A stretch of 25,321 nt of DNA from the IMG/VR virus record IMGVR_UViG_3300048121_000141, positions 1-25,321 of that record. The stretch is one strand, 5' to 3'. The stretch comes from a virus. Made by a program: the position numbers and the translations under genes. Position 1 is the first letter of the stretch; each line of letters opens with the position of its first letter. The notes under the pieces were generated by a model. The model saw only the letters and a program-made list of their open reading frames with translations, searched no databases and was not told the origin of the DNA. Below are positions 3,254-17,960 of the stretch, piece by piece.

Positions 3254-3417
3254 GTTCTCTCCCTAACATTTAAGTTCTCTATATCCACGTCATCTACATC
3301 ATAAATAACATCTGTTATCAAGTCGTAAATATCTTGTTCGTGGTTCTCTTCGTATGATGATAATATGTTGTTGTTATCATCTACCTTCGCAACAAAGGTA
3401 ACGCTAAACTTCTTCAT
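3250..3417 (-). CDS. 55-aa hypothetical protein
   Basis: A small acidic protein beginning MKKFSVTFVAKVDD, with a dense Asp/Glu/Asn composition in the second half (DLITDVIYDVDDVDIENL). It is bracketed by ATGA overlaps on both sides (start inside the stop of the 117-aa gene, stop inside the start of mazG), the strongest evidence that it is translated. The N-terminal beta-strand pattern followed by an acidic helix resembles many small phage proteins of unknown role. No function assigned. Confidence 0.68.
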   Translation of the reverse strand: MKKFSVTFVAKVDDNNNILSSYEENHEQDIYDLITDVIYDVDDVDIENLNVRERT

Positions 3418-5054: not shown

Positions 5055-5932
5055 TAGTATGCTGCCTCCTCTACATCAATAATAGAACCTACGAGACTAG
5101 CATCTTCTTTGCTCATACTTGTATTGGAACGCTCATTGTGTAGATCCAAGACCTTACCATTAGAGTAGTGAATGTAGTCCAAGAAGCCTGCTGCTGTCTC
5201 TTGCATGTAGGCATCATCCGCATCAGATGGAGTAACAATATCGCCTACGGATGATAGGGTATAACCATATGTAGCACCCGTAGGAATGGATGCCTCTGCA
5301 CCAGTAAGTGTGATCTTAGTCATGTGAGGCAGGCTGTTCTTACGAGCAATAGCCTTCTGTGATGCGTCTATATTCTTTAGGCTGTCACGATTCTTTACGT
5401 CCATGATGAATGGAATATCTACATACTCACCACTGATAGGTGTTCCAGTTTCATTTACAGGGTTATTAACAGTAAGCGTACCCATGAAGATCTTAACACG
5501 TTTAACAGTGCGGATGATGTCCTTAGTGGACTCTGGTAGGGCATTGAAGTCCTCAATGTAACCTGATGGACGACCAAGATTGTAACCACCTACGCTGTCC
5601 TGTAGATCGCTATTCACTGAGCGGCTCATGACTGACTTCTCCATCTCATTAGTAGAAGAGTTCCAGCGTTGCCACTGTAGTCGGTCTGTAATAATACGCA
5701 CATCAATACTCTCAGCGTAGAATACATCATCACCTAGCGTGATCTTGTATGCACCTACTGGTACAACATCTGTCTTAATCTTCTTGCCGCCAAGCTCAAT
5801 CTCACCCTTGATAGCGGTGCTAAGGACGTTCACACGTGCCAACGCAGAGCGCTGTTGTGTCTCTTGTTTGGGAGAACCCATAAGTTCTGCCAATGGGTTT
5901 GACGATCCTGTTGTTGCTAGTTCTGTACTCAT
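5054..5932 (-). CDS. hypothetical protein, candidate single-stranded DNA-binding protein
   Basis: A 292-residue protein with no motif I can name. Low-complexity N-terminus, beta-rich middle with aromatic residues (RLQWQRWNSS), and an acidic end (GSIIDVEEAAY). A separate acidic tail is typical of phage SSBs. Position supports the idea: first gene behind its own promoter, between DNA polymerase and the Cas4-like nuclease, where marine podoviruses often carry an SSB or recombination mediator. This is inference from context; a structural prediction would settle it. Shine-Dalgarno AAGGA lies about 9 bases before the ATG. Confidence 0.6.
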   Translation of the reverse strand: MSTELATTGSSNPLAELMGSPKQETQQRSALARVNVLSTAIKGEIELGGKKIKTDVVPVGAYKITLGDDVFYAESIDVRIITDRLQWQRWNSSTNEMEKSVMSRSVNSDLQDSVGGYNLGRPSGYIEDFNALPESTKDIIRTVKRVKIFMGTLTVNNPVNETGTPISGEYVDIPFIMDVKNRDSLKNIDASQKAIARKNSLPHMTKITLTGAEASIPTGATYGYTLSSVGDIVTPSDADDAYMQETAAGFLDYIHYSNGKVLDLHNERSNTSMSKEDASLVGSIIDVEEAAY

Positions 5933-5960
5933 CTGTATATCCTTTATTACAGTAAAAAAG

Positions 5961-5996
5961 AGTCTTAGTTATACCGTCACACATCCTGTACGTCAA
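5961..5996 (-). promoter_or_regulatory. Sigma-70-type promoter inside the 3' end of the polymerase gene
   Basis: On the minus strand, TTGACG (5996-5991), a 17-base spacer and TATAAC (5973-5968) lie over the last codons of the polymerase and the gap after it. A start near 5961 gives a leader of about 30 bases to the candidate SSB gene. Five of six bases match at each box with ideal spacing, one of the best promoters in the window. It would let the SSB, nuclease, RNR and PhoH genes be expressed independently of the upstream replication genes. Confidence 0.65.
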
Positions 5997-8025
5997 GCCA
6001 ATTCGGCCCGATTTTTGATTCTAGTAGTAACGGAACATTCATCTTTACGTTATAGGCTTGTTCTATTAAGTCTGTCAAGCCCTCATTCATGTCTTCAATA
6101 ATCTGTAGCACAGTCTCCTTCTCCTCTGGGTGAATATCTATAACAGTTGAGTCATGAACAGTGTTCACTAAGCAAGAGTTTAGATCCTTCAACCTCTCCT
6201 CCAGTTCGATAAGCACAACAGGAACAACGTCACCAGTAGCAAAACCCTGCACTGGATAGTTCTTAATCATAGTGAAGTGTGATACCCCGCCACGAGCATT
6301 GCGCTTAACGTCAGGGAATGCGTATTGCCGCCCAGACTTACTGGTAATCTTGTTGAACCTTATAGCTTCATCAGCTAAGCTCTTATGCCAAGCTGCTACA
6401 CCCTCATACTTCTCATTGAAGTGAATGTAGTATGCTTCCTCAGCCTTAGATCTGCCATACCCTGTAGCGCCAAAGAGGGGTGCAAATGTATGAGCCTTGG
6501 CTTCCTGACGTGACGTAGGCTGTCCTGCATCTGTAATAACTTGTGCAGTGTAGCTGTGTACGTCAAACCCTGTAGCAATCTCTTCCATAGCAACTTCATC
6601 CTGGGCTAGATACGCAGCCGTTCTAAACTCAAGCTGTGCAAAGTCTGCCTCACAGATGTAGCCGTTATCCCAGCGAGACACAAAGACACGCTTTACGGGA
6701 AACGTGCCGCCCCTTGGCATGTTTTGCATGTTGGGGTTTCGTCCAGAAAATCTACCTGTACTGGTGATATGCTGAGTGAGTCCCACATGCAGGAATCCGT
6801 CTGACTTAGTGAAAGTGTCGATACCCTCCACAAAACTAGAGAGGTAGCTACTAACAGCAGAAAGACGCTTAAGGTCAGTAAGAAACTCAACAGCAGCGTC
6901 CATGTTGTTCGTTTTAGCAGTACCCACAAGTACATCTAAGTTGTCCTTTCCTGTGCTAAAACCATTGGCGCTAACCCACTTCTTGCTTGGCGCACCAAAG
7001 CCTAGACCTGCAATATGGTTAAGCTCTTTCAAGCCGTAGCCACGAGCATCACAGTCCTTACATTTATTAGGCTTAGCAAACTTAGTGCCATCCTTCTTTA
7101 TCTTGTACGTCTTACCTGTGCCAGAACATGTAGGGCATGTAAAAGCCTTGGTACGTTTTATGATAGTACTGTTAGCATTTACTGCCTGCTTAAACTCTTT
7201 AGCACTACTCACATACTCAAACAGGTCAGCCCACTCCTTCTTGTTGTTAATTTTACGAGAGAAGACAACCTGAGACATCTGCTCTGGTGAGTTAAGATTG
7301 ATAGGTGTATCACCCATGATCTCACGTACCTTGTGCTGTAGTCTGTCCTCAATGTCGGCCTTCTCACGTTCAAACTCTATACGCACACCGTCTAGGGCTG
7401 TACGATCCACCCTGATTCCTGACATGTACATTCTGGTAAGGGTTTTACAGGTACGGAAGGTGACATCTCTGATGGTATGTAGGGACTCACTTTCGGGTTC
7501 ACTGTAGTCTGCTTCGATGCTGTGGAATAGCTCACGAGTTGTATCTAGGTCACACTTGAGATAAAAGCTAAGCTCACTGAGGGGGATCTCATTGGTGTTG
7601 TACCCTTCCTTAAAGTAACGCTTGAGAGTGTCATCCTTCTGAGCGTTAAGGTTCCTACGTTCTGCACAAGCCTCTAGGCTTAGTGGTTCCTTCTGACCAC
7701 GCAGTAAGATGTACTCTGCAAGCATGGTGTCATAGATAGCGCCATCATACTTAAAGCCACACTCCCACAGCCACATAAGATCGTGCTGAGCGTTGTGCAT
7801 GATTAGAAGAGTAGTCATGTCTAAGACTTGCTGGACTAGCTTACGCCCAGCGCCACTGGTGTCCTTCTTCTCAACGTGATCTAATGTTACAATGTGTAAC
7901 TCTTTGTCATTGTCTGCATTCTGCATACCGACTTGCACAAGGAAGTTACCCTCCTCGTAGGGGTCTAAGTGTAACTTCTCCCTACGTTTGTTTGTTGTGT
8001 TCTCAACGTCTAATACAAGTCTCAT
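5977..8025 (-). CDS. polA: family A DNA polymerase with 3'-5' exonuclease and inserted DnaJ-type zinc element
   Basis: A 682-residue replicative polymerase. Exonuclease: D6 and E8 (LDVEN), D82 (NAQHDL), Y155/D159 (YLKCD). Polymerase motif A: D461 in EADFAQLEFR. Motif B: R506-K510 in RQEAKAHTFAPLFG. Motif C: H624-D625-S626 in VHDS. TGRFSGRNPNMQN at 423-435 is the primer-binding consensus. Between the halves, residues 297-331 hold CPTCSGTG and, 22 residues on, CKDCDARGYG: C297, C300, C322, C325, a half-DnaJ zinc finger. An atypical polymerase with a partial DnaJ domain is a hallmark reported for phage HMO-2011. Strong SD (GAGGAG) before the ATG; 11 bases after the helicase stop. Confidence 0.95.
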   Translation of the reverse strand: MRLVLDVENTTNKRREKLHLDPYEEGNFLVQVGMQNADNDKELHIVTLDHVEKKDTSGAGRKLVQQVLDMTTLLIMHNAQHDLMWLWECGFKYDGAIYDTMLAEYILLRGQKEPLSLEACAERRNLNAQKDDTLKRYFKEGYNTNEIPLSELSFYLKCDLDTTRELFHSIEADYSEPESESLHTIRDVTFRTCKTLTRMYMSGIRVDRTALDGVRIEFEREKADIEDRLQHKVREIMGDTPINLNSPEQMSQVVFSRKINNKKEWADLFEYVSSAKEFKQAVNANSTIIKRTKAFTCPTCSGTGKTYKIKKDGTKFAKPNKCKDCDARGYGLKELNHIAGLGFGAPSKKWVSANGFSTGKDNLDVLVGTAKTNNMDAAVEFLTDLKRLSAVSSYLSSFVEGIDTFTKSDGFLHVGLTQHITSTGRFSGRNPNMQNMPRGGTFPVKRVFVSRWDNGYICEADFAQLEFRTAAYLAQDEVAMEEIATGFDVHSYTAQVITDAGQPTSRQEAKAHTFAPLFGATGYGRSKAEEAYYIHFNEKYEGVAAWHKSLADEAIRFNKITSKSGRQYAFPDVKRNARGGVSHFTMIKNYPVQGFATGDVVPVVLIELEERLKDLNSCLVNTVHDSTVIDIHPEEKETVLQIIEDMNEGLTDLIEQAYNVKMNVPLLLESKIGPNWLDVQDV

Positions 8026-8036
8026 CTCTCTCTCCT

Positions 8037-9263
8037 CTAGGCTGTGTATAGTGATCTCGCCCCGTCTAACTCACAGTGTACAACACCATGCCAACCACCC
8101 TTAAGCTTATTCTTGGCTATATTCAAGTGCCGTTGTGTGTCTTCCTCATCTGCACCCTCTACAATGGGGTTCTTAGAGATCAGAACCATTAGGTCTGCCT
8201 CTGCTGCTTTGCCTGTCTTAGAGCCTTCCATCATTGACTGGTCTACATAGACCTTACCCTCTGCTACAGCACTTAATTGTGACATCCATACAACACAACA
8301 ATTGTATTGCTTAGCGATGTTACGAGCATAGATAGCTGCATCCTTTAGGTACACATCTGACTTGTCGCTTGTCTTGCTGGCAAACTTATCACCCATGTCC
8401 AGGATCAGTACGTCTGGCTTCTCTTGCTTAACCAAGGACTCTACCCACTGCATATCCTTGTTGGTGCTATCCTTGATGCGGATATTGGCTCTGACAGGCT
8501 CGTAGCGGCTACGTGCGAGGGCTACGTTAGCCTTAACCTCATCCATAGACATGTTAGAGGCAGCACTAAGATAACGTGCTCCTACACGCTCATACGCTTC
8601 CTCATTACATAGCACTACGCACTTAGCACCCTGCCTTGCCCAGCCCTCTGGCCCTGCAATCAGTGAAGCATGGAAGGATGTCTTACCTGTGTTAGGCCGT
8701 GCGCCTACAAGTAATAGGTGACCACCGCTCACACCCTCTACCTTACGGCGTAGGCTTGGGATGTTAAACTTCCACTGTGTCTGTAGATCATTTGCCTTGA
8801 GTAGTGTGTCGATGCTGATGTCTTCCCACTCAATGCGAAGGTTAGGTGTGAAGTCATCCTTGTAGTTCTCTAGCATACGTCTCAGCGGTTCTAGGCTGGT
8901 CTGTGTGCCGTTAACGAAGTCAAAGCCAAGGTTGGCTACCTGCTCACCTACATACTGTTGAAACATCTTGCCCAGCACATCTGTAGCAATCTCTTCCTTG
9001 ATGACCTGCTCTTTGTCTATCTTACGGAACAGATCAGAGTAGGCTGTCTTGGTAGCGGTAGTCATAGTTTGGTTCTGAGCGTAGAACAGAGCCTCCAAGT
9101 CTGCTGTGTTTAGATCACCCTCATATGTACGCATAGCTGCATCTAGTGCCTGCTTAATCTTACGCACATCCTTGGTAAAGATCTTGTCGGGGCAACGTAT
9201 GCCCTTGTGTTGTTCATAGAAGTCACGACTAAGTAACGTCTTAATTAGTGCCAGTTCCATCAT
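8037..9263 (-). CDS. dnaB: DnaB-type replicative DNA helicase
   Basis: A 408-residue RecA-fold helicase. Walker A is GARPNTGKT (187-195) and Walker B is VLILD ending at D289. The motif CNEEAYERVGARYLSA (219-234) after the first ATPase strand is the DnaB H1a region, and VVWMSQLS near residue 325 is the sensor region. The N-terminal 140 residues are helical, as in DnaB primase-interaction domains. It should unwind the fork with the separate primase (12135-12914), unlike the fused T7 gp4. SD AGGAG lies 9 bases before the first of two ATGs. The gene overlaps its upstream neighbour by 23 bases. Confidence 0.93.
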   Translation of the reverse strand: MMELALIKTLLSRDFYEQHKGIRCPDKIFTKDVRKIKQALDAAMRTYEGDLNTADLEALFYAQNQTMTTATKTAYSDLFRKIDKEQVIKEEIATDVLGKMFQQYVGEQVANLGFDFVNGTQTSLEPLRRMLENYKDDFTPNLRIEWEDISIDTLLKANDLQTQWKFNIPSLRRKVEGVSGGHLLLVGARPNTGKTSFHASLIAGPEGWARQGAKCVVLCNEEAYERVGARYLSAASNMSMDEVKANVALARSRYEPVRANIRIKDSTNKDMQWVESLVKQEKPDVLILDMGDKFASKTSDKSDVYLKDAAIYARNIAKQYNCCVVWMSQLSAVAEGKVYVDQSMMEGSKTGKAAEADLMVLISKNPIVEGADEEDTQRHLNIAKNKLKGGWHGVVHCELDGARSLYTA

Positions 9264-9453
9264 TGTCTTTCTCTCCTACAAAGATACGATATATTACTTC
9301 CAGTGCAATCAGAGGCCACAGGAAGGCAAACTTGATAGGGCCAGATCTATTCTCCTCAGGATCTTCTGGCTCTACCATATGGTATAACAAGGGCAGCGCT
9401 AACACATAGGTTGCAAACATGCCAGCAAAAAAACCTTGCCCTAACTCATTCAT
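9241..9453 (-). CDS. 70-aa two-pass membrane protein
   Basis: Two hydrophobic segments, about residues 7-25 (GFFAGMFATYVLALPLLY) and 42-58 (FAFLWPLIALEVIYRIFV), are separated by an acidic loop with EPEDPEEN. A short acidic tail ends DNDGTGTN. This predicts a hairpin in the inner membrane. No family known to me. It overlaps the helicase start by 23 bases and the upstream gene by 8, so it is part of the replication transcript. A membrane anchor for replication or a host-modifying peptide are both possible. Confidence 0.65.
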   Translation of the reverse strand: MNELGQGFFAGMFATYVLALPLLYHMVEPEDPEENRSGPIKFAFLWPLIALEVIYRIFVGEKDNDGTGTN

Positions 9454-9682
9454 GTTTCAACTCTACATAATAGGAACCTTCTGAGCTTTTGTATGCAGCC
9501 ATCAAGTCTATCCACTGCTGTGCGCTCATGAGTATTAGCTGGTATGAATCCATATCTGGCTCGTACTGTCTGATGTACACATCACCACCATCACCCAAGA
9601 TAACCTCAACATCCTCATACATATCGTTTTGATCTAGCGTTGTGATTACTGCTGCATCTGATTCAAACTCAACTGTGTACAT
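9446..9682 (-). CDS. 78-aa hypothetical protein
   Basis: A small acidic protein. The first 45 residues look like alternating beta strands (MYTVEFESDAAVITTLDQ..., EVILGDGGDVYIRQY), followed by an amphipathic helix SAQQWIDLMAAYKSS and the end YYVELKHE. Related-looking short proteins are frequent in phage early regions without known role. Its ATG lies inside the end of the 42-aa gene and its stop inside the start of the membrane protein gene. Confidence 0.65.
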   Translation of the reverse strand: MYTVEFESDAAVITTLDQNDMYEDVEVILGDGGDVYIRQYEPDMDSYQLILMSAQQWIDLMAAYKSSEGSYYVELKHE

Positions 9683-9797
9683 CTGGTTGCTCCGCTACAA
9701 GAATGTTGACGTGTGCTATGTTACCCTCAACACGAGTGATGACATACTCTAACCCCGCCTTAGTGAGTAACAATCTTAGTTGACCTATAGGTATCAT
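9669..9797 (-). CDS. 42-aa hypothetical protein
   Basis: A short gene recognised by its junctions: its ATG forms an ATGA overlap with the stop of the DUF3310 gene, and its end overlaps the next gene by 14 bases. The product begins MIPIGQLRLLLTKAGLEYVI and continues with a beta-like segment (TRVEGNIAHVNILVAE). The pattern helix-strand-strand is compatible with a small folded domain. No function can be assigned. Confidence 0.5.
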   Translation of the reverse strand: MIPIGQLRLLLTKAGLEYVITRVEGNIAHVNILVAEQPDVHS

Positions 9798-10129
9798 AGC
9801 TTATCCTCTCCATTAAGTTGATTGATACGCATCTGACAATAGCGTTGGACTTTCTCTAAGTCAATGATCTCGCTTTGTACCTGCGTCTTACCCTCGTACA
9901 TCTTGTATCCTGCACGACTGGCATACTTAACAATGTTGCCACGCCAGAACTCAAAACCATTACGCATGATGTATGTGATAGGCTCAATAGCCCACCGTGC
10001 GTAGTGCTTAGGTTCATTTACTATATCTTTATTGCGTGTCATTGGCGGTTCTTCTTTATGCTCTGCCAATACATTCTCCCTAAAGTTTTCACGTTCTTTT
10101 ATTAGTCGATTCCATTCACTCTTTATCAT
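9794..10129 (-). CDS. DUF3310 family protein
   Basis: The core VNEPKHYARWAIEPITYIMRN...NIVKYASRAGYK...EIIDLEKVQRYC is the phage DUF3310 signature, sometimes annotated as a nucleotide-kinase-like protein on weak grounds; its true activity is unknown. The start is uncertain. The frame is open to a GTG at 10153, but the ATG at 10129 has GGTGAGA just upstream, and the conserved domain starts only at the later in-frame Met at 10042. I chose 10129, which overlaps the small upstream gene by 14 bases. ATGA coupling to the 42-aa gene follows. Confidence 0.78.
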   Translation of the reverse strand: MIKSEWNRLIKERENFRENVLAEHKEEPPMTRNKDIVNEPKHYARWAIEPITYIMRNGFEFWRGNIVKYASRAGYKMYEGKTQVQSEIIDLEKVQRYCQMRINQLNGEDKL

Positions 10130-10247
10130 TGCTCTCACCATTCTTTGCGTCACGTTCTTGAGCAGCCTTGCGCTCCTCTGGTGTCATAGGTCTAACGTCT
10201 GTGAAGTCTGCCTCTAAGGGCCACTCATTGTCTGTCACGGAGTACAT
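10116..10247 (-). CDS. 43-aa hypothetical protein
   Basis: A short highly charged product starting [18 protein letters not shown] and ending in a Lys/Glu/Asp-rich helix ([17 protein letters not shown]). It fills the gap between the 70-aa gene and DUF3310, overlapping the former by 23 bases and the latter by about 14. The SD is poor, so translation may depend on coupling. The amino acid pattern is typical of small phage proteins; no homolog recognised. Confidence 0.45.
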
Positions 10248-10437
10248 CCTCATACTTGTTGAACAACTGCTCAAACTTCCACTCGTATAACTGCTGCATA
10301 CCTATCAAGGCGTTCATCAGTTCATCCTCAGTAGGTTCACCGTCACCTACCTGTTTGAAGACAATCTCAAGGTCATTACACACACGCCAACAGTCCAATA
10401 TCATTGGCTCTAATTCATACATCTTACTCATCTTCAT
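10225..10437 (-). CDS. 70-aa hypothetical helical protein
   Basis: Almost entirely helical and acidic. [25 protein letters not shown] is followed, after a turn with GDGEPTEDE, by a second helix [20 protein letters not shown] and the end YEDVLRDRQ. Small proteins of this form are common in T4-like and marine phages without known function. Three possible Met starts lie in the first six codons. It overlaps the upstream gene by 14 bases. Confidence 0.65.
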
Positions 10438-10645
10438 CTCCCTTATAAAACAAAACGTGTTCCTCTTCTAATCTAACTAAGGATAACGAATACTTCTCTT
10501 GTTCGGTAACTACCCAATTTGTTGTTCTCTCATAGTGGTCGAGCCTCACGTTAGCAATAGCGTCCTCACGGGTTACACCATAGCTCTCTCGCCATTCCAA
10601 CTGCACGGTCTCTACCGCTACATAGTATTTTACTTCAGCTCCCAT
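10424..10645 (-). CDS. 73-aa hypothetical protein
   Basis: Predicted beta-alpha-beta pattern: [18 protein letters not shown], a helix [11 protein letters not shown], then strands ending [14 protein letters not shown]. The layout resembles small phage proteins of unknown role. It overlaps its upstream neighbour by 11 bases and the downstream one by 14. No catalytic motif is visible. Confidence 0.62.
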
Positions 10646-10946
10646 TTGTTTCCCCTTTCAGTTCTGCGAGGGTTTTAAGGGCCACGGCATATGCTGCGGT
10701 CATAGACTTTGGCTCATTATAGGCAAGGTCAACTTCATCATATTCAATGACCAATTGTTGCAACGCTTCCACCGCCTTCGCCAGATTAGATTCCAGTTCC
10801 TCAATGCGGTCGGCTGCATCGAATAGCATGTCAGTTGTCGCATCATAATCTACACTGCCGCCAAGATCGCCATGGGTGTCACCACTCCACCGCTTGCGAT
10901 GTTCGACTATGCCAAAACGCAGGTGTTTCACTAAATCATCAATCAT
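10635..10946 (-). CDS. 103-aa hypothetical protein (Ead/Ea22-like pattern)
   Basis: The pattern MIDDLVKHLR, then DMLFDAADRIEELESNLAKAVEAL (a coiled-coil helix), then AYAVALKTLAELKGE resembles phage proteins grouped loosely as Ead/Ea22-like, whose function is unknown. The DNA looks somewhat richer in GC than its neighbours, which could mean recent acquisition; I judged this by eye only. Its ATG overlaps, as ATGA, the stop of the UGA-interrupted reading frame described next. Confidence 0.65.
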   Translation of the reverse strand: MIDDLVKHLRFGIVEHRKRWSGDTHGDLGGSVDYDATTDMLFDAADRIEELESNLAKAVEALQQLVIEYDEVDLAYNEPKSMTAAYAVALKTLAELKGETNGS

Positions 10947-11185
10947 TCTAAAAGTCCCAGAAGATGCTTACGACTATCATCGTTATTATCAACCCCAAAA
11001 TAAGCATCTCTGTTGATTTCATTTAACCCTACCTTCCAAGTTGTTCCTCTTTTTATTCCGCCTTTTTGTATTGCTCTATCTAATCGCTTCCTATAGGAGT
11101 CTAGTCAAATCCTAAAAAAGAACCACAAAGCATAGAACCCTATTAAGGAAACAGGGATTGTGATTACATCTATAAAATCTTGCAT
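10943..11185 (-). pseudogene. membrane peptide gene interrupted by an in-frame UGA (pseudogene or read-through gene)
   Basis: From ATG at 11185 the frame encodes a transmembrane N-terminus (VITIPVSLIGFYALWFFF) and hits TGA at 11107-11105 after 26 codons. The same frame then stays open for 53 codons, encoding a basic tail (SYRKRLDRAIQKGGIKRG) and an acidic end, and stops at 10943 in an ATGA overlap with the next gene, as real genes do in this arm. No ATG, GTG or TTG start is available after the TGA in that frame. The base after the stop is C (UGA-CUA). It could be a nonsense mutation, a sequencing error or programmed read-through giving 80 residues. SD AAGGA lies upstream of the ATG. A competing 24-aa ORF in another frame (10948-11022) also looks membrane-spanning. 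Confidence 0.5.
10948..11022 (-). CDS. possible 24-aa membrane peptide (alternative reading)
   Basis: MKSTEMLILGLIITMIVVSI followed by FWDF and a TAG, in a different frame from the interrupted gene. A purine-rich GGAAGG precedes the ATG by about nine bases and the stop is one base before the next start. It is a plausible single-helix membrane peptide but may be a chance ORF inside the longer interrupted frame. Confidence 0.3.
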   Translation of the reverse strand: MKSTEMLILGLIITMIVVSIFWDF

Positions 11186-11190
11186 CAGTC

Positions 11191-11349
11191 TTAATCCTTT
11201 ACCATTGCTTGCGCCCAAGTTTCCTTATAACCAGTGTGATATACAAAAAATACGCCACCTTGTGGTCGCCAACCCTGCTCTATTCGAGTATTTACTTCTT
11301 TAGCAAGCGTATGGCAATGGCTAGATTTAAAAATGCGATACCTCATCAT
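11191..11349 (-). CDS. DUF1737-like small protein
   Basis: The product (52 residues) reads MMRYRIFKSS, then LAKEVNTRIEQGWRPQGGV, then ETWAQAMVK. The pattern LxxxVNxxIxxGWxPxGG...QAMVK is that of the short DUF1737 domain, found alone in phages and bacteria and of unknown function. The gene overlaps the end of thyX by 23 bases in another frame. The in-frame extension further upstream lies inside thyX and is not real. SD GGAG lies just before the double ATG; either Met is possible. Confidence 0.75.
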   Translation of the reverse strand: MMRYRIFKSSHCHTLAKEVNTRIEQGWRPQGGVFFVYHTGYKETWAQAMVKD

Positions 11350-12001
11350 CACTCTCCGTAAGTGCATCCCATGCCACTGGGAATAGTTCAAGCATCTTGT
11401 GGTCAATCTGTTGTGCAACTGCCCGTGTCTCTGCTTGTGTGTCTGACTTGCAGCGTAAGTTACACATATCAGCAAAGGCATCAAGACTACCTGACCAGTA
11501 CCACTCAGTCGTGTGGTTCAGAGGAAGGATGCCCCTTGCTTGTTCCTCACAAACGCCTGTCTGTAGCAGGTATCTGTACTGCTTAACCGCTTCGATGTGG
11601 GCATGACGGATAACTTCATCCTGCTGTATGCTAAGTATCAGAGGGTCACCACTGCCCTGCTTCTTGTCTGTAGCAGCAGCCCGTAGCTTAGGCTGGTAGA
11701 ACTCTGGTTCATCCTTGACATAACGCCTAGATATTTCGTTCCATCTCAAGAACTTATGCTTGACTAGCTGCCGTGCTACGAACACGGGAGCCTTGATGTG
11801 GAAGGATGCGAAGCAATGTCCGAATGGACTGATGTGCTTATGCTTGGCAAGGTAGCGGATCAGCTTATCGTCTTTCTTCTTGAGCTTAGGTGGCCCCCAA
11901 GGGTCATCCTCCATCTCGCTTGTCTTACCAAACGATACACGGGCAGCGTTAGCTACTGTTAAGTCTGTACCCATGTGGTCAATGTATGTTGCTTTAATCA
12001 T
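11327..12001 (-). CDS. thyX: FAD-dependent thymidylate synthase ThyX
   Basis: A 224-residue flavin-dependent synthase making dTMP from dUMP with methylene-tetrahydrofolate and NADPH. The signature RHRx7S region is present as KHKFLRWNEISRRY (81-94): conserved H82, N88, E89, S91 and Y94, but Lys in place of both flanking Arg. The N-terminus (ATYIDHMGTDLTVANAARVSF) and HISPFGHCFASFHIKAP are also typical. With the RNR it supplies dTTP for phage synthesis. It starts with a TAATG overlap on the 45-aa gene. The Lys variant is worth noting but probably functional. Confidence 0.95.
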   Translation of the reverse strand: MIKATYIDHMGTDLTVANAARVSFGKTSEMEDDPWGPPKLKKKDDKLIRYLAKHKHISPFGHCFASFHIKAPVFVARQLVKHKFLRWNEISRRYVKDEPEFYQPKLRAAATDKKQGSGDPLILSIQQDEVIRHAHIEAVKQYRYLLQTGVCEEQARGILPLNHTTEWYWSGSLDAFADMCNLRCKSDTQAETRAVAQQIDHKMLELFPVAWDALTESDDEVSHF

Positions 12002-12138
12002 TAGAATGGCACCTCACCGTTTGCATCTCGTGGATCTACATAATATCCTGGCTGCATATAGTCAGGCTTGGTTGCGCTGGGCTTAGGGTGGACACTCTCT
12101 AGTCCCATATCTTTGAGAAAATCTTTTAGATCGTTCAT
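12001..12138 (-). CDS. 45-aa hypothetical protein
   Basis: Between primase and thyX, locked to both by overlaps (ATGA with the primase stop, TAATG with the thyX start), so very likely translated. The sequence MNDLKDFLKDMGLESVHPKP continues with a Pro/Tyr-rich segment DYMQPGYYVDPRD and ends GEVPF. The short terminal motif ending in aromatic/hydrophobic residues could be a partner-binding tail, perhaps for a replication protein, which is only inference. Confidence 0.65.
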   Translation of the reverse strand: MNDLKDFLKDMGLESVHPKPSATKPDYMQPGYYVDPRDANGEVPF

Positions 12139-12914
12139 GATAGTAACTCCTTTAATCTCTCTAGGTCACCAGTTAGCCTATACTTGATGTCATCGTCAAG
12201 CCTAAAGGCTGTACTATTTGCTTTAGTCCATAGTGCTATCTCTCTGCTGAACTGCAATGTCTTGTGTGCAGCATCAGGATCTAGTGCTACTATTACATTG
12301 TCATACTCACCTATTTTAGCCATGTGTGCAGACGTAAGAGCTGTGCCAAGGATAGCCATAGCTGTAACATTAGGAAACTCTTGGTAAGCAACCATAGCAG
12401 AGACGCAATCCTCCAGTACAAGCAGGTTGCTACCTGTTCCTATGGTGTAGTAGTCAGCCTTACCTGTGTAGCGATACCACTTAGGCAACTTCTCGCCTAC
12501 TGCACGTCCATTAGCGTCAACTATGCGTCCCTTGTAGTGTATCGGAAATACAACACGTTCATCCTTAACGTCATAGAGTAGCCGTCTGTCTACGATACCC
12601 CAGCGCCTTGTGAACCTGTGAAACTTATCATGCTCTGCTGTAGGCTGTACGACATACTCAGGTATCTCCATAGTATCTGGCTCTAACTGTACAGGCTTCT
12701 CCTGTTTAGCCATGAGTATCTTTATCTCCGCTGCTGTGAGATCTGTGTGATGATACCCGCCAATGCTACAGTCTAACTTGTAGCAGTTGTACTTGATCTG
12801 TCCCATCTCTTTGGTGACTGTAAAGGTATTCTTAGCGTAGCAGGATGGGCAGTTCATACGTCTGCTCTCATCCTCACGCAAGTCTAGGCTGTCTAGGTAC
12901 TTACGAATGTTCAT
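12135..12914 (-). CDS. DNA primase (zinc-binding plus TOPRIM)
   Basis: A 259-residue stand-alone primase of the T7 gp4 N-terminal type. The zinc ribbon is C22-x2-C25 and C44-x4-C49. The TOPRIM fold is marked by E168 in LLVLEDCVSAMVA and by D212 and D214 in VIVALDPDAAHK. It should lay RNA primers for lagging-strand synthesis with the separate DnaB-type helicase. The helicase half of T7 gp4 is absent and encoded elsewhere, a split arrangement. It overlaps the upstream gene by 14 bases and is ATGA-coupled downstream. Confidence 0.9.
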   Translation of the reverse strand: MNIRKYLDSLDLREDESRRMNCPSCYAKNTFTVTKEMGQIKYNCYKLDCSIGGYHHTDLTAAEIKILMAKQEKPVQLEPDTMEIPEYVVQPTAEHDKFHRFTRRWGIVDRRLLYDVKDERVVFPIHYKGRIVDANGRAVGEKLPKWYRYTGKADYYTIGTGSNLLVLEDCVSAMVAYQEFPNVTAMAILGTALTSAHMAKIGEYDNVIVALDPDAAHKTLQFSREIALWTKANSTAFRLDDDIKYRLTGDLERLKELLS

Positions 12915-13281
12915 CTGTTTTCTTGCTCCAATACTCAGCGTCTTGCTCGACAGAACGGTAATATGTAGCCATGAAATGCTCTATACCCTCAGAGTGATAG
13001 TGTTTATTTCTTTTGTCGCTACCCCATTGACCTGTTGAGTAGTAGTACGAATAGCGAGGCGAATACCTATCCTTTGGGTCTTTACTCTTGTAAATAAAAA
13101 ACATCTTTATTTTAGGATACACTATGTAGTCTACCCCTAAGTCATCTAGGTACTTTTTTACATACTCCTCTGATTGATTAGTAAACTTACGGAACTTAGG
13201 CTTGCCGTTCTTTTTACGGCCTACATAAACCCAACCGTCTTTTTTTGGGCTATCGTCAAATGTTACTTCACTCATCATCAT
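12901..13281 (-). CDS. 126-aa hypothetical protein
   Basis: A basic, Tyr- and Lys-rich protein. Residues 10-35 (SPKKDGWVYVGRKKNGKPKF) look like a small beta unit, and the middle contains many Tyr (RYSPRYSYYYSTGQW). No family recognised. Three successive ATGs are possible starts at the 14-base overlap with the integrase end. Its place between integrase and primase suggests a DNA-related accessory role, without direct evidence. Confidence 0.62.
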   Translation of the reverse strand: MMMSEVTFDDSPKKDGWVYVGRKKNGKPKFRKFTNQSEEYVKKYLDDLGVDYIVYPKIKMFFIYKSKDPKDRYSPRYSYYYSTGQWGSDKRNKHYHSEGIEHFMATYYRSVEQDAEYWSKKTDEHS

Positions 13282-14176
13282 TACCTCTTGCTGCTAGAGC
13301 CTTGCTGGCTCCACTGAATGTATTAACCATGTAAGGCTTAACACTGTTGACATTCTTATGGCCTGTTACCTGCATAATACCTGCAAGGTCAACACCCGCT
13401 TCCATCATCTCTGTCACTGCTGTACGGCGTAAATCCATAGCTGTTAGGTGCTTAGGTAGATTAGCTTCTTCCAGTACCCCATTGATAAGATTTGATACCT
13501 CCTCTAAGTCATACGGTGTGTAAGCTCCTGCTCTAGGCTTAACTCTAGGTGCAACATATTCTTGGAAGCCAAAGTCATCCTTCTGCTGTTGCAGCATACG
13601 GCAAAGCCCTGCGCTAATTGGTAGGTGTACTTCTGCCCCACGCTTAGACTGTGTGATGTCGAGGCGACACTCTGTAAGATCCAGCTTGTCCCATGTAAGA
13701 ACACGCATATCACCTACACGCTGCCCCCAGTCATACGCCATGTGTACGATCAGAGTAATGCTACGCCATCTCATATCTGCATAGCCTACACTCAGGAATG
13801 TCTTGACTTGATCCCTGCTCCACTTAACCCTGCGTTGATTATCTGAGCTTGTCTTGATTAGACTGACAGGGTTGTGCTCCATAACGTCATTACGCATGGC
13901 GTACTTCCAGGCTGCGCTTAGACTAGCCTTACGATAGTTGGCAGTGCGAGTACCAGACAGTAGCCACTTCTCATAAGCTGCATTCAAGTGACGGGCTTTG
14001 ATGTCTGCTACTACATAGTTCTTCAACATGCGCCTACCTACCAAGGTATTACCTACAGCGGTTAGGTTGGCCTCATAACTTATTTGAGTTCTACCTTTAA
14101 GTTTAGCAAAGGCAGCACTCTTGAGGTAGTAGGTTAGTATTTTTTCTAGTGTGTCACTGCTATTAGGTATTCTCAT
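13268..14176 (-). CDS. int: tyrosine recombinase / phage integrase
   Basis: A 302-residue integrase with an N-terminal SAM-like core-binding domain (about 10-100) and a catalytic domain. Box I arginine is R153 (DWGQRVGDM), the lysine is near K178, box II is MDLRRTAV with R250, the third-box His is H273 (TGHKNV), and the nucleophile is Y282 (PYMVN) nine residues later. The usual His of HxxR is Met247, a deviation that many active members tolerate poorly or compensate for. SD AGGAG precedes the ATG. Presence suggests ability to lysogenise; I did not find an obvious att site or tRNA gene beside it. Confidence 0.92.
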   Translation of the reverse strand: MRIPNSSDTLEKILTYYLKSAAFAKLKGRTQISYEANLTAVGNTLVGRRMLKNYVVADIKARHLNAAYEKWLLSGTRTANYRKASLSAAWKYAMRNDVMEHNPVSLIKTSSDNQRRVKWSRDQVKTFLSVGYADMRWRSITLIVHMAYDWGQRVGDMRVLTWDKLDLTECRLDITQSKRGAEVHLPISAGLCRMLQQQKDDFGFQEYVAPRVKPRAGAYTPYDLEEVSNLINGVLEEANLPKHLTAMDLRRTAVTEMMEAGVDLAGIMQVTGHKNVNSVKPYMVNTFSGASKALAARGNDDE

Positions 14177-14240
14177 CTCTCTCTCCTACTTGGGTAAGTA
14201 ACCCGCCCAATGCGAGCAATCATCATGCGGGTCATCTGTA

Positions 14241-14312
14241 TTAGAATACATAGATCAGTAGCAATGCTATGAAAGGCCACAGTATGTACAAAGCGAATAA
14301 GTTTTTCATCAT
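14241..14312 (-). CDS. 23-aa single-pass membrane peptide
   Basis: MMKNLFALYILWPFIALLLI plus YVF: essentially one transmembrane helix with a Lys at the N-terminal side. The 17 bases ending at its second codon start (14310-14326) are identical to those at the glycine-zipper gene start (14789-14805), including the AAGG Shine-Dalgarno. This shared initiation region is the main support that it is translated. Such peptides can act as holin-like or host-membrane modifiers, but nothing here proves it. Confidence 0.5.
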   Translation of the reverse strand: MMKNLFALYILWPFIALLLIYVF

Positions 14313-14329
14313 GGTTTTGTTACCTTCCT

Positions 14330-14791
14330 TCACTTATCAAAGGTAACTTGGTACGACTTGCCGTTTACTACAAAGGTAATAATGCTATAGTCATACTGTT
14401 TACGATTAACCTCTTCAAAAGTCTCAACAGTCTCACACTGCAGTTCGTCACGATACCCTGTTACAACACGCTCTGTCTTCTTTTTGTCTGCTGTTGCTAC
14501 ACCGCCTATCACTGCACCTGCTGCCGCTCCCTTATCGTTACCTGTTACGACTTTGCCTAGCAAGCCACCTAAGAGCATACCACCCAGTATATCCCCACCA
14601 GATGCACCTTTGTTTCGTGTGCCATATACAGGGACTTGAACTGTTTGACACACACGTTTTGTCTCTGGGATACGCTCAACATAGTAAGTATAGAAGTCTT
14701 CTACTTGAGCGTTTGATACTCTGTCCTGTGCAACTAAGGGTGTCGCCATTAATAAAAATGCTAAGGGTGTTAGTTTAAGTGTATTAGTCAT
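14330..14791 (-). CDS. exported glycine-zipper (2TM) protein
   Basis: A 153-residue protein with a clear Sec signal peptide (MTNTLKLTPLAFLLMATPLV, cleavage probably after AQ at 22) and a glycine-zipper domain: GGDILGGMLLGGLLGKVV (65-82) and DKGAAAGAVIGGVA (86-99). This is the pattern of the Rickettsia 17-kDa antigen/Gly-zipper_2TM outer-membrane proteins. C48 and C119 flank the zipper and could form a disulfide in the periplasm. An envelope protein amid replication genes is unusual; it may be a host-derived gene altering the surface of infected or lysogenised cells, for example against superinfection. Located just upstream of the integrase block, as lysogenic-conversion genes often are. Confidence 0.85.
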   Translation of the reverse strand: MTNTLKLTPLAFLLMATPLVAQDRVSNAQVEDFYTYYVERIPETKRVCQTVQVPVYGTRNKGASGGDILGGMLLGGLLGKVVTGNDKGAAAGAVIGGVATADKKKTERVVTGYRDELQCETVETFEEVNRKQYDYSIITFVVNGKSYQVTFDK

Positions 14792-14991
14792 GGTTTTGTT
14801 ACCTTACTGTTTATTTCGGAGTGCAGGAATTTACCCGCAGCTGTGGTGAACGTAACACGCCTCACACTCTTGCGCTTGAATAGTCGTAGCTTCATGCGAT
14901 GTGCATCATGAGGAGTGAATACTGTGGTGATATACTCACCGTCAGGCTGACCTACACTGGCGTAGACCTTGATAGCTTTACTTGCGATCAT
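14788..14991 (-). CDS. 67-aa basic hypothetical protein
   Basis: A small basic protein. Beta-like start MIASKAIKVYASVGQPDGEY, then HDAHRMKLRLFKRKSVRRVTF and a C-terminus with KVTKP. The clustered Arg/Lys (RLFKRKSVRR) could contact nucleic acid. It is ATGA-coupled to the exported glycine-zipper gene and shares a one-base overlap with the HTH gene upstream, so it belongs to the transcript started at the 15271 promoter. Not recognised. Confidence 0.62.
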   Translation of the reverse strand: MIASKAIKVYASVGQPDGEYITTVFTPHDAHRMKLRLFKRKSVRRVTFTTAAGKFLHSEINSKVTKP

Positions 14992-15206
14992 TATGCTGTC
15001 TCCTCAATAAGCACATAGCGTGTGTACTGCTGACCAGTCACAGGGTGCTTACCCTTCACGCCATCAATGCGATAGCCTGACTTGCGTAGCTCAGAGATAC
15101 GCTTAGTGAATGACTGGATGCTGTAGTCCAGCATAGCCTCACGTTGGGTCAGACCCTTGGTTGCACGAAGGTGTGTGATGATCTTAGAGTTTTGTGTGTT
15201 AGTCAT
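14991..15206 (-). CDS. small helix-turn-helix regulator-like protein
   Basis: A 71-residue winged-HTH-type protein: ITHLRATKGLTQREAMLDYS, then KRISELRKSGYRI, then a hairpin ending YTRYVLIEE. This matches the phage helix-turn-helix domain with pattern LTxxEAxxxxxixxxxxRIxELRkxGyxI. I place the start at 15206, where AGGAG precedes the ATG by 9 bases. The longer frame from 15272 would begin inside the -10 box of the promoter at 15271-15279. It may bind the tandem repeats just upstream and control this operon; that is inference. Confidence 0.78.
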   Translation of the reverse strand: MTNTQNSKIITHLRATKGLTQREAMLDYSIQSFTKRISELRKSGYRIDGVKGKHPVTGQQYTRYVLIEETA

Positions 15207-15249
15207 GTCTTTCTCTCCTATGTTAGACATTGTTAGGTTAGTCATAGTA

Positions 15250-15311
15250 GTTGGCTGCGTCAATGTTACCATTATATCACGTTAGCTGCGTTAAGGTTGC
15301 CTTGATATAAC
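15250..15311 (-). repeat. two tandem 31-bp imperfect direct repeats upstream of the HTH gene
   Basis: Copies at 15250-15280 and 15281-15311 abut exactly and agree at 24 of 31 positions (core GCTGCGT and GTTRCC on the plus strand). The copy nearer the gene contains the -10 box. A 6-bp inverted repeat GTTGCA-TTTC-TGCAAC follows at 15312-15327. This is the layout of an operator, possibly bound by the adjacent HTH protein. Confidence 0.6.
15264..15279 (-). promoter_or_regulatory. extended -10 promoter for the HTH gene operon
   Basis: Minus strand TGATATAAT (15279-15271) is a perfect extended -10 (TGnTATAAT). No -35 better than chance lies 17 bases upstream, as is usual for extended -10 promoters. 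A start near 15264 gives a leader of about 58 bases to the ATG at 15206. It lies within a 31-bp repeat, so a repressor bound there would block it. Confidence 0.55.
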
Positions 15312-15327
15312 GTTGCATTTCTGCAAC

Positions 15328-15501
15328 TCATGATCCAAGTAACTCCTGTACTTTGACCAATACCTTGGCACGATCAAGGTAATACTGCATGAGGCTTACA
15401 TCATCATATTCAACCTCACCCCATGATGTCTGTTCCATGTCACCCTCAAGTAAATCCTTGAGCATCAACAGTTCACTCGTGTACAGTTCTAGCTTATCCA
15501 T
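15328..15501 (-). CDS. 57-aa hypothetical helical protein
   Basis: An acidic helical protein starting MDKLELYTSELLMLKDLLEG, with a second helix SLMQYYLDRAKVLVKVQELL. It looks like a two-helix hairpin. Linked to the preceding 47-aa gene by a TAATG overlap, with AGGAGG upstream inside that gene's end. It ends next to the palindrome of the HTH control region. No function is suggested by its sequence. Confidence 0.65.
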   Translation of the reverse strand: MDKLELYTSELLMLKDLLEGDMEQTSWGEVEYDDVSLMQYYLDRAKVLVKVQELLGS

Positions 15502-15644
15502 TATTCCACCTCCTCTTCTACTACTACATTGGTGAACTTGATGTATACGCCACCTTCACCGTCATCGTCAAGTAATTCTTGATAGTCTACGTCTGTGTCT
15601 TTGATCATCTGCCATAGGGCGTTAAAGAAATCTTCTCGTGTCAT
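15501..15644 (-). CDS. 47-aa hypothetical acidic protein
   Basis: Starts MTREDFFNALWQMIKDTDVD, followed by an acidic Gly-containing turn (LLDDDGEGG) and a strand VYIKFTNVVV before a run EEEVE. TAATG overlaps on both sides (with the methyltransferase-like gene and the 57-aa gene) show it is part of a coupled series. No motif or known family. Confidence 0.62.
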   Translation of the reverse strand: MTREDFFNALWQMIKDTDVDYQELLDDDGEGGVYIKFTNVVVEEEVE

Positions 15645-16372
15645 TACGCCATCTCCTCTACTGTCTGGCTGTTAAACTCATAGACTGCCTTAGCAAAGCC
15701 ACGGGGTGTGGCTGATCGTATATCTTTGGTGCGCTGTGACTTACCGCCCAGCTTCAAGTGTTGTGTGCTGTAGCCTGTCGGCTTGCAGGTAGGGATCTTT
15801 GTGGGCATACGAAAGCCGTTGCCTGTCCAGAGGCATGTCTTCTTTGTGTAGGCATCACGCTCTGCGATATACTCAGGCCAGCGTGGATGCACTGCCTCAG
15901 CATCACTTAGATATTCTCCGTATTCATAGGGGTGAAAACTATGGTCAGGCTTGCGCCACTTGGTAGCCAAGACACTGACAGGGTTCTCCACAAAGAAGGG
16001 AACGTGTAGGCTGTTGAACAGTCTGGCACACCATACGGCATAGCTCACAGCCTCATCTTGGAATGATGGGTTAGCCTCTGCCTTGCGCTTGAAGTGTGCC
16101 GCACCTGATACAGCCATGTCAGTACAGACAGGGAAGGCCATGCCAAACACTACGGGCTTGTCTGCAAACGCAGATTGTATGGCGTTGAGGTTTTTGTGGT
16201 CATGTAAGTCAACTTTATGGAAGCGAATAGAACCACCGCCATCAAAGCGATCAACCCATCCAGCCTCATCATGTTGAATGTCAAAGGCGTGACAGGTATA
16301 CCCTGCCTCTGCCCATGGTTTAAGTGCTTCACCTGTGAAGTCATACAGGCTGATTACGATACCTTTGGTCAT
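15644..16372 (-). CDS. C5-cytosine-methyltransferase-like protein
   Basis: A 242-residue SAM-dependent-methyltransferase-like protein. ISLYDFTGEALKPWAEAGY (7-25) fits the SAM-binding motif I with D31 in the following strand. FPVCTDMAVSGA (80-91) holds a possible catalytic C83 in place of the usual Pro-Cys pair. VENPVS (128-133) parallels the ENV motif IV, and IRSATPRGFAKAV (218-230) resembles motif X. It is shorter than bacterial Dcm enzymes (over 300 residues) and no target-recognition domain is evident. It may methylate phage DNA against restriction, or modify a nucleotide. Pro-Val-Cys makes me cautious on activity. Confidence 0.7.
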   Translation of the reverse strand: MTKGIVISLYDFTGEALKPWAEAGYTCHAFDIQHDEAGWVDRFDGGGSIRFHKVDLHDHKNLNAIQSAFADKPVVFGMAFPVCTDMAVSGAAHFKRKAEANPSFQDEAVSYAVWCARLFNSLHVPFFVENPVSVLATKWRKPDHSFHPYEYGEYLSDAEAVHPRWPEYIAERDAYTKKTCLWTGNGFRMPTKIPTCKPTGYSTQHLKLGGKSQRTKDIRSATPRGFAKAVYEFNSQTVEEMA

Positions 16373-16539
16373 TAGTTTACCTCCATTAGTTTACAAACCC
16401 TCAATGTGCCATGCCCACCTTCTGATCGGTGTTCATCCAACATAAAGTAACTCTCTGCGGCATCCTCTGTGCCTACCTGATCCACGTATTTAGTTTCATC
16501 ACCATCTGAATAGGTGAGTGTGATAACTTGTACTAGCAT
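16372..16539 (-). CDS. 55-aa hypothetical protein
   Basis: Strong Shine-Dalgarno GGAGG about six bases before the ATG. The product begins MLVQVITLTYSDGDETKYVD, goes through a helix TEDAAESYFMLDEH, and ends with a strand GTLRVCKLMEV. The beta-alpha-beta pattern is typical of small phage proteins. Its stop overlaps the methyltransferase-like start as TAATG. Not recognised. Confidence 0.68.
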   Translation of the reverse strand: MLVQVITLTYSDGDETKYVDQVGTEDAAESYFMLDEHRSEGGHGTLRVCKLMEVN

Positions 16540-16540
16540 A

Positions 16541-16762
16541 TTACACCTCCATTAGTGCGTTTGTCTTGTGAAAATATACATGGTTACGCATAAGACCACC
16601 CCGCTCACTCTTGAGCTTGTGGATGCTACTGATCTTGATGTCTAACTGTCCCTCTGCTGTCTCTGCCCACACAGTAATTCTGTCGGGATACTCAGACTTA
16701 AAGAGGGCCAAAGCTCTTGTTGCTACTTCCAAGGTGGTTGTGTCTATGTCTAAGTGTGCCAT
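16541..16762 (-). CDS. 73-aa hypothetical protein
   Basis: A helix with TTTLEVATRALALFKSEYPD is followed by strands RITVWAETAEGQLDIKISS and a basic end HKLKSERGGLMRNHVYFHK. It ends two bases before the next gene's ATG and begins with TAATG on the upstream stop. No known family; its neighbours are equally small and uncharacterised accessory genes. Confidence 0.62.
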   Translation of the reverse strand: MAHLDIDTTTLEVATRALALFKSEYPDRITVWAETAEGQLDIKISSIHKLKSERGGLMRNHVYFHKTNALMEV

Positions 16763-17001
16763 TAGAAATTCTCCGATATTGTTGCATAATCCAGTATTAC
16801 ATTGCGGCTGGTGGCGTGGGTGTAGCCCTCAATCATGCGATTTTCCCAGCCGTGCGTGATAGTATAAGACCACCCCGCATCCGCTTTTGTGTGTAGCGTT
16901 AAGGTCTTCCCAAAGCGATCCACTGCCACGAACTTGAAGCGTGGATTGCCACTGGTTGTATTGGTGAGCCTGCGCATAGACTTGATAAAATAGCGTTCCA
17001 T
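16762..17001 (-). CDS. 79-aa hypothetical protein
   Basis: Mixed alpha/beta, basic in the first half (MERYFIKSMRRLTN, NPRFKFVAVDRFGKTLTLH) and with aromatic residues in the middle (GWSYTITHGWENRM). The end RNVILDYATISENF is acidic. Good SD (AGGAG, 8 bases before the ATG) after a short gap of 30 bases from the DUF7178-like gene, so this could be the first gene of a coupled set. Not recognised. Confidence 0.62.
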   Translation of the reverse strand: MERYFIKSMRRLTNTTSGNPRFKFVAVDRFGKTLTLHTKADAGWSYTITHGWENRMIEGYTHATSRNVILDYATISENF

Positions 17002-17031
17002 TGTGTTAGTCTCCTATAGGTTTATATTGTT

Positions 17032-17625
17032 TTACTTGATGCCGTGTATTCTGCGCCATGTCACCCATGTGATAGCTTGCAGGTCACAGGCTTTGATGCC
17101 CAGTATAGCCGCCGCATCACGATAAGCTTGAGCAATGGTATTATATTCGGCCTTGTTTATGTTGGCGGCGTTAGACTTCAAGCCTACACGTTCAGCATAT
17201 GCAATATTCCTAGCGTGACCGTCCACTGTCACACTGTCACCGCCCATGATATTGTCAAAGAATGCAGATATTTTAGGGCCGTTCAAAGTCTTGAGAATAG
17301 CCGCATATCTGTTGACGCCATCCAATACCTTGTAACCTTTGAGGCGATTAGCTTTGTAAGCCATGCACCCGTCAATATTTTCATGGTCAATCTGTGCCGT
17401 GTGACCGTCAATGATCTGCTCCGCAGTTGGCACATTCTTAGGCCATCCAAGGTTAGGGCTTGATGCCGCCACTACGCCAACAACTTTCATCAGACTTAGA
17501 TTTTTAGTCTTGGCAACTTTGCGACAGTCACGCCGAGCACGATTGTACCATTGCAAGCCATCAAGTTTTTCTTGGCGTGTAGCCATGCCGTGACAGGTTA
17601 AGATATTATTTACAAGATTATTCAT
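17032..17625 (-). CDS. DUF7178-like phage protein (possible DNA-glycosylase-like fold)
   Basis: A 197-residue helical protein. The segments VVAASSPNLGW (51-61), DNIMGGDSVTVDGHARN (124-140, with D135 and H137) and LQAITWVTWRR near the C-terminus match a conserved phage family I know as DUF7178. The pattern of helices with a VD.H motif resembles HhH-GPD DNA glycosylases, but no activity is established, so I offer that only as a hint. It is the first gene of the leftward arm, 22 bases past a bipartite hairpin (17648-17697) in its leader. The SD is weak (AAGAGAAAGAGAA). Confidence 0.72.
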   Translation of the reverse strand: MNNLVNNILTCHGMATRQEKLDGLQWYNRARRDCRKVAKTKNLSLMKVVGVVAASSPNLGWPKNVPTAEQIIDGHTAQIDHENIDGCMAYKANRLKGYKVLDGVNRYAAILKTLNGPKISAFFDNIMGGDSVTVDGHARNIAYAERVGLKSNAANINKAEYNTIAQAYRDAAAILGIKACDLQAITWVTWRRIHGIK

Positions 17626-17639: not shown

Positions 17640-17960
17640 CTTGTTAAGGTTAGACTATAGAAACGCCTGTTGATTGCAGGCGCTTACTAGTCCAACCAAA
17701 GAAGATGACCTTGCGCCTCTTTATTAGGCGTCAATCACATTGCTAGTTGAACAGAGACCCGCAGGCTAGTCCGTCAAAGCATCCTCTTTAGTTGTTCCCA
17801 TCATCGGCTTGCGCCTAGGTTTGAGGTAGATCCAGTAATGTCAAATAACGTTCGGTATTGTTTCAGACCTCAGAGTTTCTGACCATCGCCGCAACTCTTG
17901 AGCATCGCCGCCCGTTCCGTGTTGCTTAGGTCTTAAACCGTGGAATCATTAAGACCATAT
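17640..17960 (-). ncRNA. candidate structured non-coding RNA or long structured leader
   Basis: About 320 bases without an ORF, GC-richer than the AT-rich DNA beside it. Helices: 17648-17657 with 17688-17697 (10 bp) enclosing 17664-17669 with 17677-17682 (6 bp); 17711-17718 with 17726-17734 (8 bp, one bulge); 17822-17827 with 17867-17872 (6 bp); 17929-17936 with 17949-17956 (8 bp, perfect). CATCGCCGC occurs at 17884-17892 and 17903-17911. The 10-bp helix is complete as minus-strand RNA (one G.U) but has an A-C mismatch on the plus strand, favouring leftward transcription; the 17822 helix weakly favours plus. It does not match any RNA family I recognise. Also possible: structured DNA. Confidence 0.5.

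Follow-up and report, generated by a model that had tools for sequence, protein, structure and literature searches.

In the rRNA (rrn) operons of E. coli, boxA is reported to be necessary and sufficient for formation of the antitermination complex and recruitment of its factors, and the leader elements follow the order boxB-boxA-boxC (PMC10250234). The boxA signal is reused in the 5' leaders of mRNAs, namely E. coli suhB and a Citrobacter toxin gene (PMC5725501). A folded, cis-acting leader RNA located just after the early promoter is represented by HK022 put (PMC9378689). SIO1, the type of the cobavirus group, is reported to be T7-like and to have no RNA polymerase of its own, and cobavirus genes are arranged in two arms (PMC6775973).

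The window analysed here is the whole stretch of 25,321 nucleotides, a 25-kb virus record in which a block at 17640-17960 lies at the divergent point between a leftward and a rightward arm. The DNA of the block is similar to that of the Lentibacter phages ICBM1 and ICBM3, and the nearest relatives of the first leftward protein are found in roseophages CRP-207, CRP-1, ICBM2, P12053L and SIO1. Judged by these similarities, the virus is a cobavirus/CRP-type roseophage. Cobaviruses are marine phages and are widespread, and they reportedly lack the RNA polymerase that their T7-like relatives have. The leftward operon encodes a DNA methyltransferase, a tyrosine integrase, a primase, ThyX, a DnaB-like helicase, a family A DNA polymerase and a class II ribonucleotide reductase, and the rightward genes reach the large terminase. 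A terminator scan of the leftward operon gave only two terminator-like sites on the minus strand, both within ORFs, and over both strands of the operon there was no excess of such sites relative to shuffled sequences. No tRNA or tmRNA was found in the window. The tyrosine integrase gene (13268-14176) sits within the replication operon, and lytic cobaviruses are among the relatives of the phage. The rightward arm starts with a run of short ORFs that are very rich in lysine and arginine (20230-21384). In the AT-rich divergent region, GCGAATCACC/AACGAATCAC motifs are repeated at 18128-18185, and similar clusters of CGAATCAC occur in CRP-207 (contig L084, 6220-6300) and in contig L008. The repeated GCGAATCACC/AACGAATCAC/CGAATCAC motifs are perhaps regulator or origin sites.

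The preliminary description had presented the block as a non-coding, GC-richer segment filled with helices and placed beside AT-rich DNA, and these points hold. It contains no ORF of at least 50 amino acids, and its GC content is about 0.42-0.47 versus 0.32-0.33 just rightward. The minus-strand fold has an energy of -97.7 kcal/mol against -84.1 +/- 5.5 for shuffled sequences (z -2.5, with 0 of 100 shuffles as good), and the plus-strand fold is weaker (z -1.6). The 10-bp helix formed by 17648-17657 and 17688-17697 is indeed fully paired only as minus-strand RNA, where it includes a single G-U pair that becomes A-C on the plus strand. Covariation among homologs, which had been named as the evidence to look for, was found. 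The strongest structural evidence comes from a hairpin that had not been singled out earlier, at 17798-17819, which covaries strongly across 27 distinct sequences from phages. Read from the minus strand, 17640-17960 specifies a conserved structured RNA with compensatory changes in its relatives. A search of the window against Rfam gave no match at the gathering thresholds, and at E<10 the best sub-threshold match (E 0.83) was implausible. AT-rich DNA and repeated GCGAATCACC motifs adjoin the block, and this might point to a DNA element at the divergent point, either a replication origin or a cruciform. However, helix 17648-17697 pairs perfectly only as minus-strand RNA, and wherever the element recurs it has a fixed orientation ahead of the downstream genes, so that a DNA element is very improbable. 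The features of the RNA and its surroundings are collected in Table 1.

Table 1. Positions of the leader features, the candidate promoter and the adjoining leftward genes in the window.
Feature	Position	Strand	Basis
Structured 5' leader RNA of the leftward early operon	17640..17960	-	No ORF; fold z -2.5; homologs L004, L090, L093, L180; covariation
Candidate host sigma-70 promoter, TTGTCA-N17-TCTTAA	17949..17977	-	Comparison with L004, L090, ICBM1, SIO1
5' domain D1: GACC-UAA-GCAAC ... hairpin GGGC-GGCGAU-GCUC ... GUUGC-GGCGAU-GGUC	17881..17932	-	Pairing kept in relatives
Upstream hairpin, at the rrn/nut boxB position	17854..17869	-	2 nt before ACG of boxA
boxA, ACGTTATTTGACATT	17837..17851	-	G(C/T)TNTTTGA(C/A)AT in all elements
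Hairpin D2, CC-UA-GGC-GCAA-GCC-GAUGAU-GG	17798..17819	-	Covariation in phages and host rrn leaders; UA/GAUNAU internal loop
Long-range helix D3, arms 17780-17789 and 17698-17707, enclosing hairpin 17714-17732	17698..17789	-	Minimum-energy fold
Terminal hairpin D4: 10-bp helix and 9-bp inner stem	17648..17697	-	Sequence, fold; 22 nt before start codon
First gene after the leader, DUF7178 (PF23802, phrog_3842)	17032..17625	-	ORF list and profile matches
Leftward early operon served by the leader (putative)	135..17625	-	ORF list and profile matches

The inner stem of the terminal hairpin D4 is swapped for an unrelated, fully paired stem in contigs L090, L093 and L007. The stem reads GCGCCUG/CAGGCGU in the window, GGGGCGA/UCGCCCU in L090 and GUGGCAA/UUGCCAU in L007, and all of these are paired. 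Changes in the arms of the long-range helix D3 preserve pairing in L004, L180 and L090. The inner stem of the 5' domain D1 also varies with its pairing intact (GGGC/GCUC, AGGC/GCCU and AUGC/GCAU) among L090, L092, L094, L095 and ICBM1. This domain is modular, because L180 and other phage groups lack it. A scan with the D1 pattern AGAGTTGCGGCGATGG gave mostly chance matches within coding sequence, and D1 is therefore regarded as lineage-specific. Two matches of a D1 pattern in bacterial genomes, from unrelated taxa, were taken as chance from the match count alone. The sequence GGCGAU occurs twice in D1, in the hairpin loop and in the 3' flank.

A core that outlasts the rest of the leader was defined by comparing ICBM1, ICBM3, SIO1, ICBM2 and contigs L004, L090 and L092-L105. 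It consists of ACG(C/T)TNTTTGA(C/A)AT, a spacer, and the hairpin D2 of the form stem-UA-[GG..CC]-GAUNAU-stem, in which the internal loop is fixed. BoxA is the best conserved part of the element, with the consensus GCTCTTTGACAT in other phages. The covariation of D2 in the 27 distinct phage sequences is 0.43 versus 0.11 for shuffled sequences, with 35 cells changed on both sides and 0 of 500 shuffles as high, and sliding the partner by 1-3 bases lowers the score to 0.08 or less. Gaps have no influence on this count, for which each segment was cut at the fixed motifs and its loops were masked as N. Among these hairpins, inner pair 3 is found as GC, CG, UA and AU, outer pair 1 as CG, UA, GC and AU, and outer pair 3 as AU, CG, GC, UA and GU; inner pairs 1 and 2 and the 3' base of outer pair 2 were set by the search patterns and are uninformative. 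At the scoring cut-off, 34 of 42 phage elements have a stem ending 0-5 nt before boxA (81% versus 27% in shuffled sequences), and the stem sequences are unrelated. The corresponding hairpin of the window has 3 bp only and falls just under the cut-off.

The long terminal hairpin, 22 nt before the start codon, keeps its fold and not its sequence. This would suit a device for stabilizing or processing the mRNA (5' hairpins, an RNase III site) or a recruiter of rRNA-maturation factors, either of which would leave termination unchanged. In addition, rrn leaders double as processing signals. However, this explanation does not account for the strictly conserved single-stranded boxA or for the UA/GAUNAU loop, and the compact leaders of L137, L144 and L149 drop the long terminal helices yet retain the hairpin, boxA and D2. 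We regard it as unlikely.

The candidate promoter has counterparts in relatives, TTGCAA-17-TCTTAA in ICBM1 (from the comparison of L004, L090 and ICBM1) and TTGCTT-17-CTATAA in SIO1. In a consensus scan it scores 9/12, which is about the shuffled level, so the candidate is weak on its own. The transcript would begin approximately 7 nt past the promoter, near 17942. In the L149 group about a dozen elements have a promoter of the TTGACA-17-CATAAA type at a fixed distance of 79-81 nt before boxA, which would therefore be about 45 nt into the transcript. In this group a terminase-like gene with a Walker motif lies in the opposite direction. The boxA region might instead be a promoter itself, with TTTGACATT as its -35 element and the hairpins incidental, for a perfect TTGACA lies within TTTGACATT and likewise within the host rrn boxA. 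However, the position of the -10 element is occupied by D2, which covaries, and this reading is hardly credible. When TTTGACATT was tried as a -35 element in 42 elements, TATAAT matches 16-18 nt downstream had a mean of 2.05/6, which is lower than the random best-of-three value of 2.39.

A pattern scan of IMG/VR that required only TTTGACAT, TAGG and CCGATNATNG gave 57 contigs. The bases G(C/T)TN before TTTGACAT, which the pattern did not require, are present in at least 40 of the 57, where about 2 would be expected. A model, R1, was built from 18 phage core sequences with no host sequence, and with it E was <0.01 for most of the 45 additional contigs that the scan supplied. Where the context of a phage locus is readable, the first ORF of an operon mostly lies about 40-280 nt downstream of the element and has the same direction. 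A few short or truncated contigs give no information on position, nor do records such as L146, L169 and L176, whose ORF calls overlap the site. A BLAST search against phages found no isolate for the L137 and L144 groups.

The genes that follow the element are unrelated, and in some cases they are tRNA arrays. Record G005 (L185, 42 kb) has two copies, each right after a promoter of the TTGACA/TATAGT type, and the second copy heads a row of seven tRNA genes. Like rrn, this row is an untranslated operon, and operons of that kind are those on which antitermination of the rrn type is most needed. The tRNA array of L185 is dense, with 9 tRNAs in 5 kb. A riboswitch or other sensor of small molecules, controlling the nucleotide-metabolism genes of this arm, would be in keeping with a structured 5' leader ahead of an operon with ribonucleotide reductase and ThyX. 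However, there is no sign of a riboswitch, because the same core precedes unrelated genes and tRNA arrays; moreover, there is no Rfam match and the conserved loops are those of rrn leaders. Such a sensor is extremely improbable.

A T7-type RNA polymerase (PF00940) is absent from 13 of 14 element-bearing records, several of which are fragments. The exception is L156 (record G006, 73 kb), which has a SIO1-like element plus a T7-type RNA polymerase gene at 40444-41484. Some relatives manage without the full element, since R1 has no match in cobavirus P12053L, in CRP-207 or in CRP-1, and the lack of the element in P12053L indicates that it is not universally required. In P12053L (L086, 150-310) a promoter-like region is kept before the first gene, and boxA and the hairpin are missing. 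CRP-207 has only the boxA-like CGCTATTTAGACT. Hairpin D2 is absent from the long non-coding leaders of the close DUF7178 relatives L005, L006, L008-L011 and CRP-207, and only a boxA-like site is retained in L005, L006 and L009. The leaders of the CRP-207 type (L084 6440-6660 and L008 4560-4780) are long and non-coding, with the boxA-like CGCTATTTAGA and no D2.

Because the phage motif resembles boxA, the rrn leaders of Rhodobacterales were examined, the sample being 14 leaders of plasmid-borne rrn operons. All 14 have boxA and then the D2 hairpin, in the same order and on the same strand as in the phages. The host leaders contain GCTCTTTGACATTG and, downstream, CUCU-UA-GGC-UUCG-GCC-GAUGAU-AGAG or equivalents, and the boxA 12-mer of the window, GTTATTTGACAT, is identical to boxA in the Ketogulonicigenium rrn leader. 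The covariation of D2 in the 14 host leaders (0.83 versus 0.33 for shuffled sequences) is stronger than in the phages. In four of four Rhodobacterales rrn regions the top match of the phage-only model R1 is the rrn leader (Tritonibacter, E 7.6e-4), and R1 matches ten more Rhodobacterales rrn leaders at the expected place, most of them with boxA and D2 (best, Sulfitobacter, E 8.2e-6). Some of the host matches cover boxA only because the hairpin is more distant from it: the spacing from boxA to D2 is about 12-38 nt in phages versus about 75-95 nt in host rrn leaders, longer by about 55-70 nt than in most phages. No D2 hairpin was seen in the leaders of Sphingobium, Azospirillum, Sinorhizobium and Phyllobacterium, in which boxA-like sequences are present. 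With D2 in 14 of 14 Rhodobacterales and seen in none of these four other alphaproteobacteria, the hairpin is tied to the host order.

In the host regions L122-L135 the covarying stem-UA-hairpin-GAUNAU-stem, found in no Rfam family, is located about 100-300 nt upstream of 16S rRNA. An Rfam search of the Tritonibacter rrn leader gave nothing credible. A hairpin of this kind in Rhodobacterales rrn leaders appears in neither Rfam 15 nor the open-access papers searched, though the subscription literature might describe one. In the host rrn leaders D2 might serve 16S maturation. The host boxC motif GTGGGCGG (GUGUGGG-type, pairing with the trailer) was not seen in the leader of the window, which is therefore not an rRNA operon leader and is only partly built like one. 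The shared hairpin fits mimicry of the host or capture from it, and may reflect common descent or convergence.

Mimicry of the host rrn leader would suit a decoy acting in trans equally well. An abundant early RNA could titrate NusB-S10, SuhB or a D2-binding protein, drawing them off host rRNA synthesis, and thus shut down ribosome production. However, in many unrelated phages the element lies directly between the promoter and the first gene or tRNA array, as a cis element would, and no terminator-like site that could free the RNA is predicted inside the block. This makes a decoy improbable. The same points bear on the three readings offered in the preliminary description. A free phage non-coding RNA is disfavoured by the lack of a predicted release terminator and a riboswitch by the unrelated genes and tRNA arrays downstream, and the antitermination leader is retained, its boxA and hairpin being common to the host rRNA-operon leader.

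We consider it likely that the block is a host-mimicking, rrn-type, Nus-factor-dependent antitermination leader. By copying two signals of the host rRNA leader, it would probably let the host RNA polymerase pass along the phage genes without stopping, as happens on ribosomal RNA. The host RNA polymerase would initiate near 17950 and head leftward, and in the first 300 nt or so of the RNA the hairpins would fold around boxA. NusB-S10 would bind boxA and, with NusA, NusG, probably SuhB/S4, and a factor recognizing D2 through UA/GAUNAU, could convert the polymerase to a termination-resistant form. The converted polymerase, probably resistant to Rho, would then transcribe the 17-kb replication operon. 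With no strong intrinsic terminators predicted in the operon, the leader would have to act against Rho or pausing. A phage N protein would be unnecessary, as the site would act by imitating the host rRNA leader.

More generally, we lean towards the view that many phages of Rhodobacterales-like hosts carry a portable host rRNA antitermination signal for their early genes and tRNA arrays, which would replace an antiterminator or RNA polymerase of their own and would include an undescribed UA/GAUNAU module of the antitermination machinery of the order itself. No description of such an element in phages was found in the open-access literature searched, and the subscription literature could differ. 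The leader offers a concrete answer to the question of how cobaviruses may drive long early operons with the host polymerase, namely by borrowed host rRNA antitermination. It also draws attention to a hairpin that covaries among the rRNA leaders of Rhodobacterales, a major order of marine bacteria. The reuse of D2 by phages suggests that it may act in antitermination or in the handling of transcripts, in a way separable from ribosome building.

It is useful to compare this leader with the known systems. The phage order of hairpin, boxA and hairpin resembles the boxB-boxA-boxC order of rrn. The closest likeness is to the Rhodobacterales rrn leader, which also has boxA (GCTCTTTGACATTG, with GTTATTTGACAT as the variant of the window) and then the stem-UA-GG..CC-GAUNAU-stem hairpin. 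However, the phage element has no boxC-like GUGGGCGG helix and precedes protein genes or tRNAs, not 16S rRNA. The nut sites of lambda (boxA and boxB, with the N protein) are similar in having boxA and a hairpin near an early promoter in a phage relying on the host RNA polymerase, but the hairpin here matches the host rrn leader and not an N-binding boxB. None of the genes scanned, in a search not aimed at small arginine-rich proteins, stood out as an N homolog. HK022 put, compared by description, is likewise a cis-acting folded leader RNA immediately past an early promoter. It consists of two stem-loops in about 70 nt of RNA, acts alone on RNA polymerase and has no boxA, whereas the present element is centred on boxA. 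Finally, the leaders of suhB and the Citrobacter toxin gene also carry boxA outside rRNA, in a 5' leader. Those cases are bacterial and involve boxA alone, while in the present phage boxA is combined with a second element of the rrn leader.
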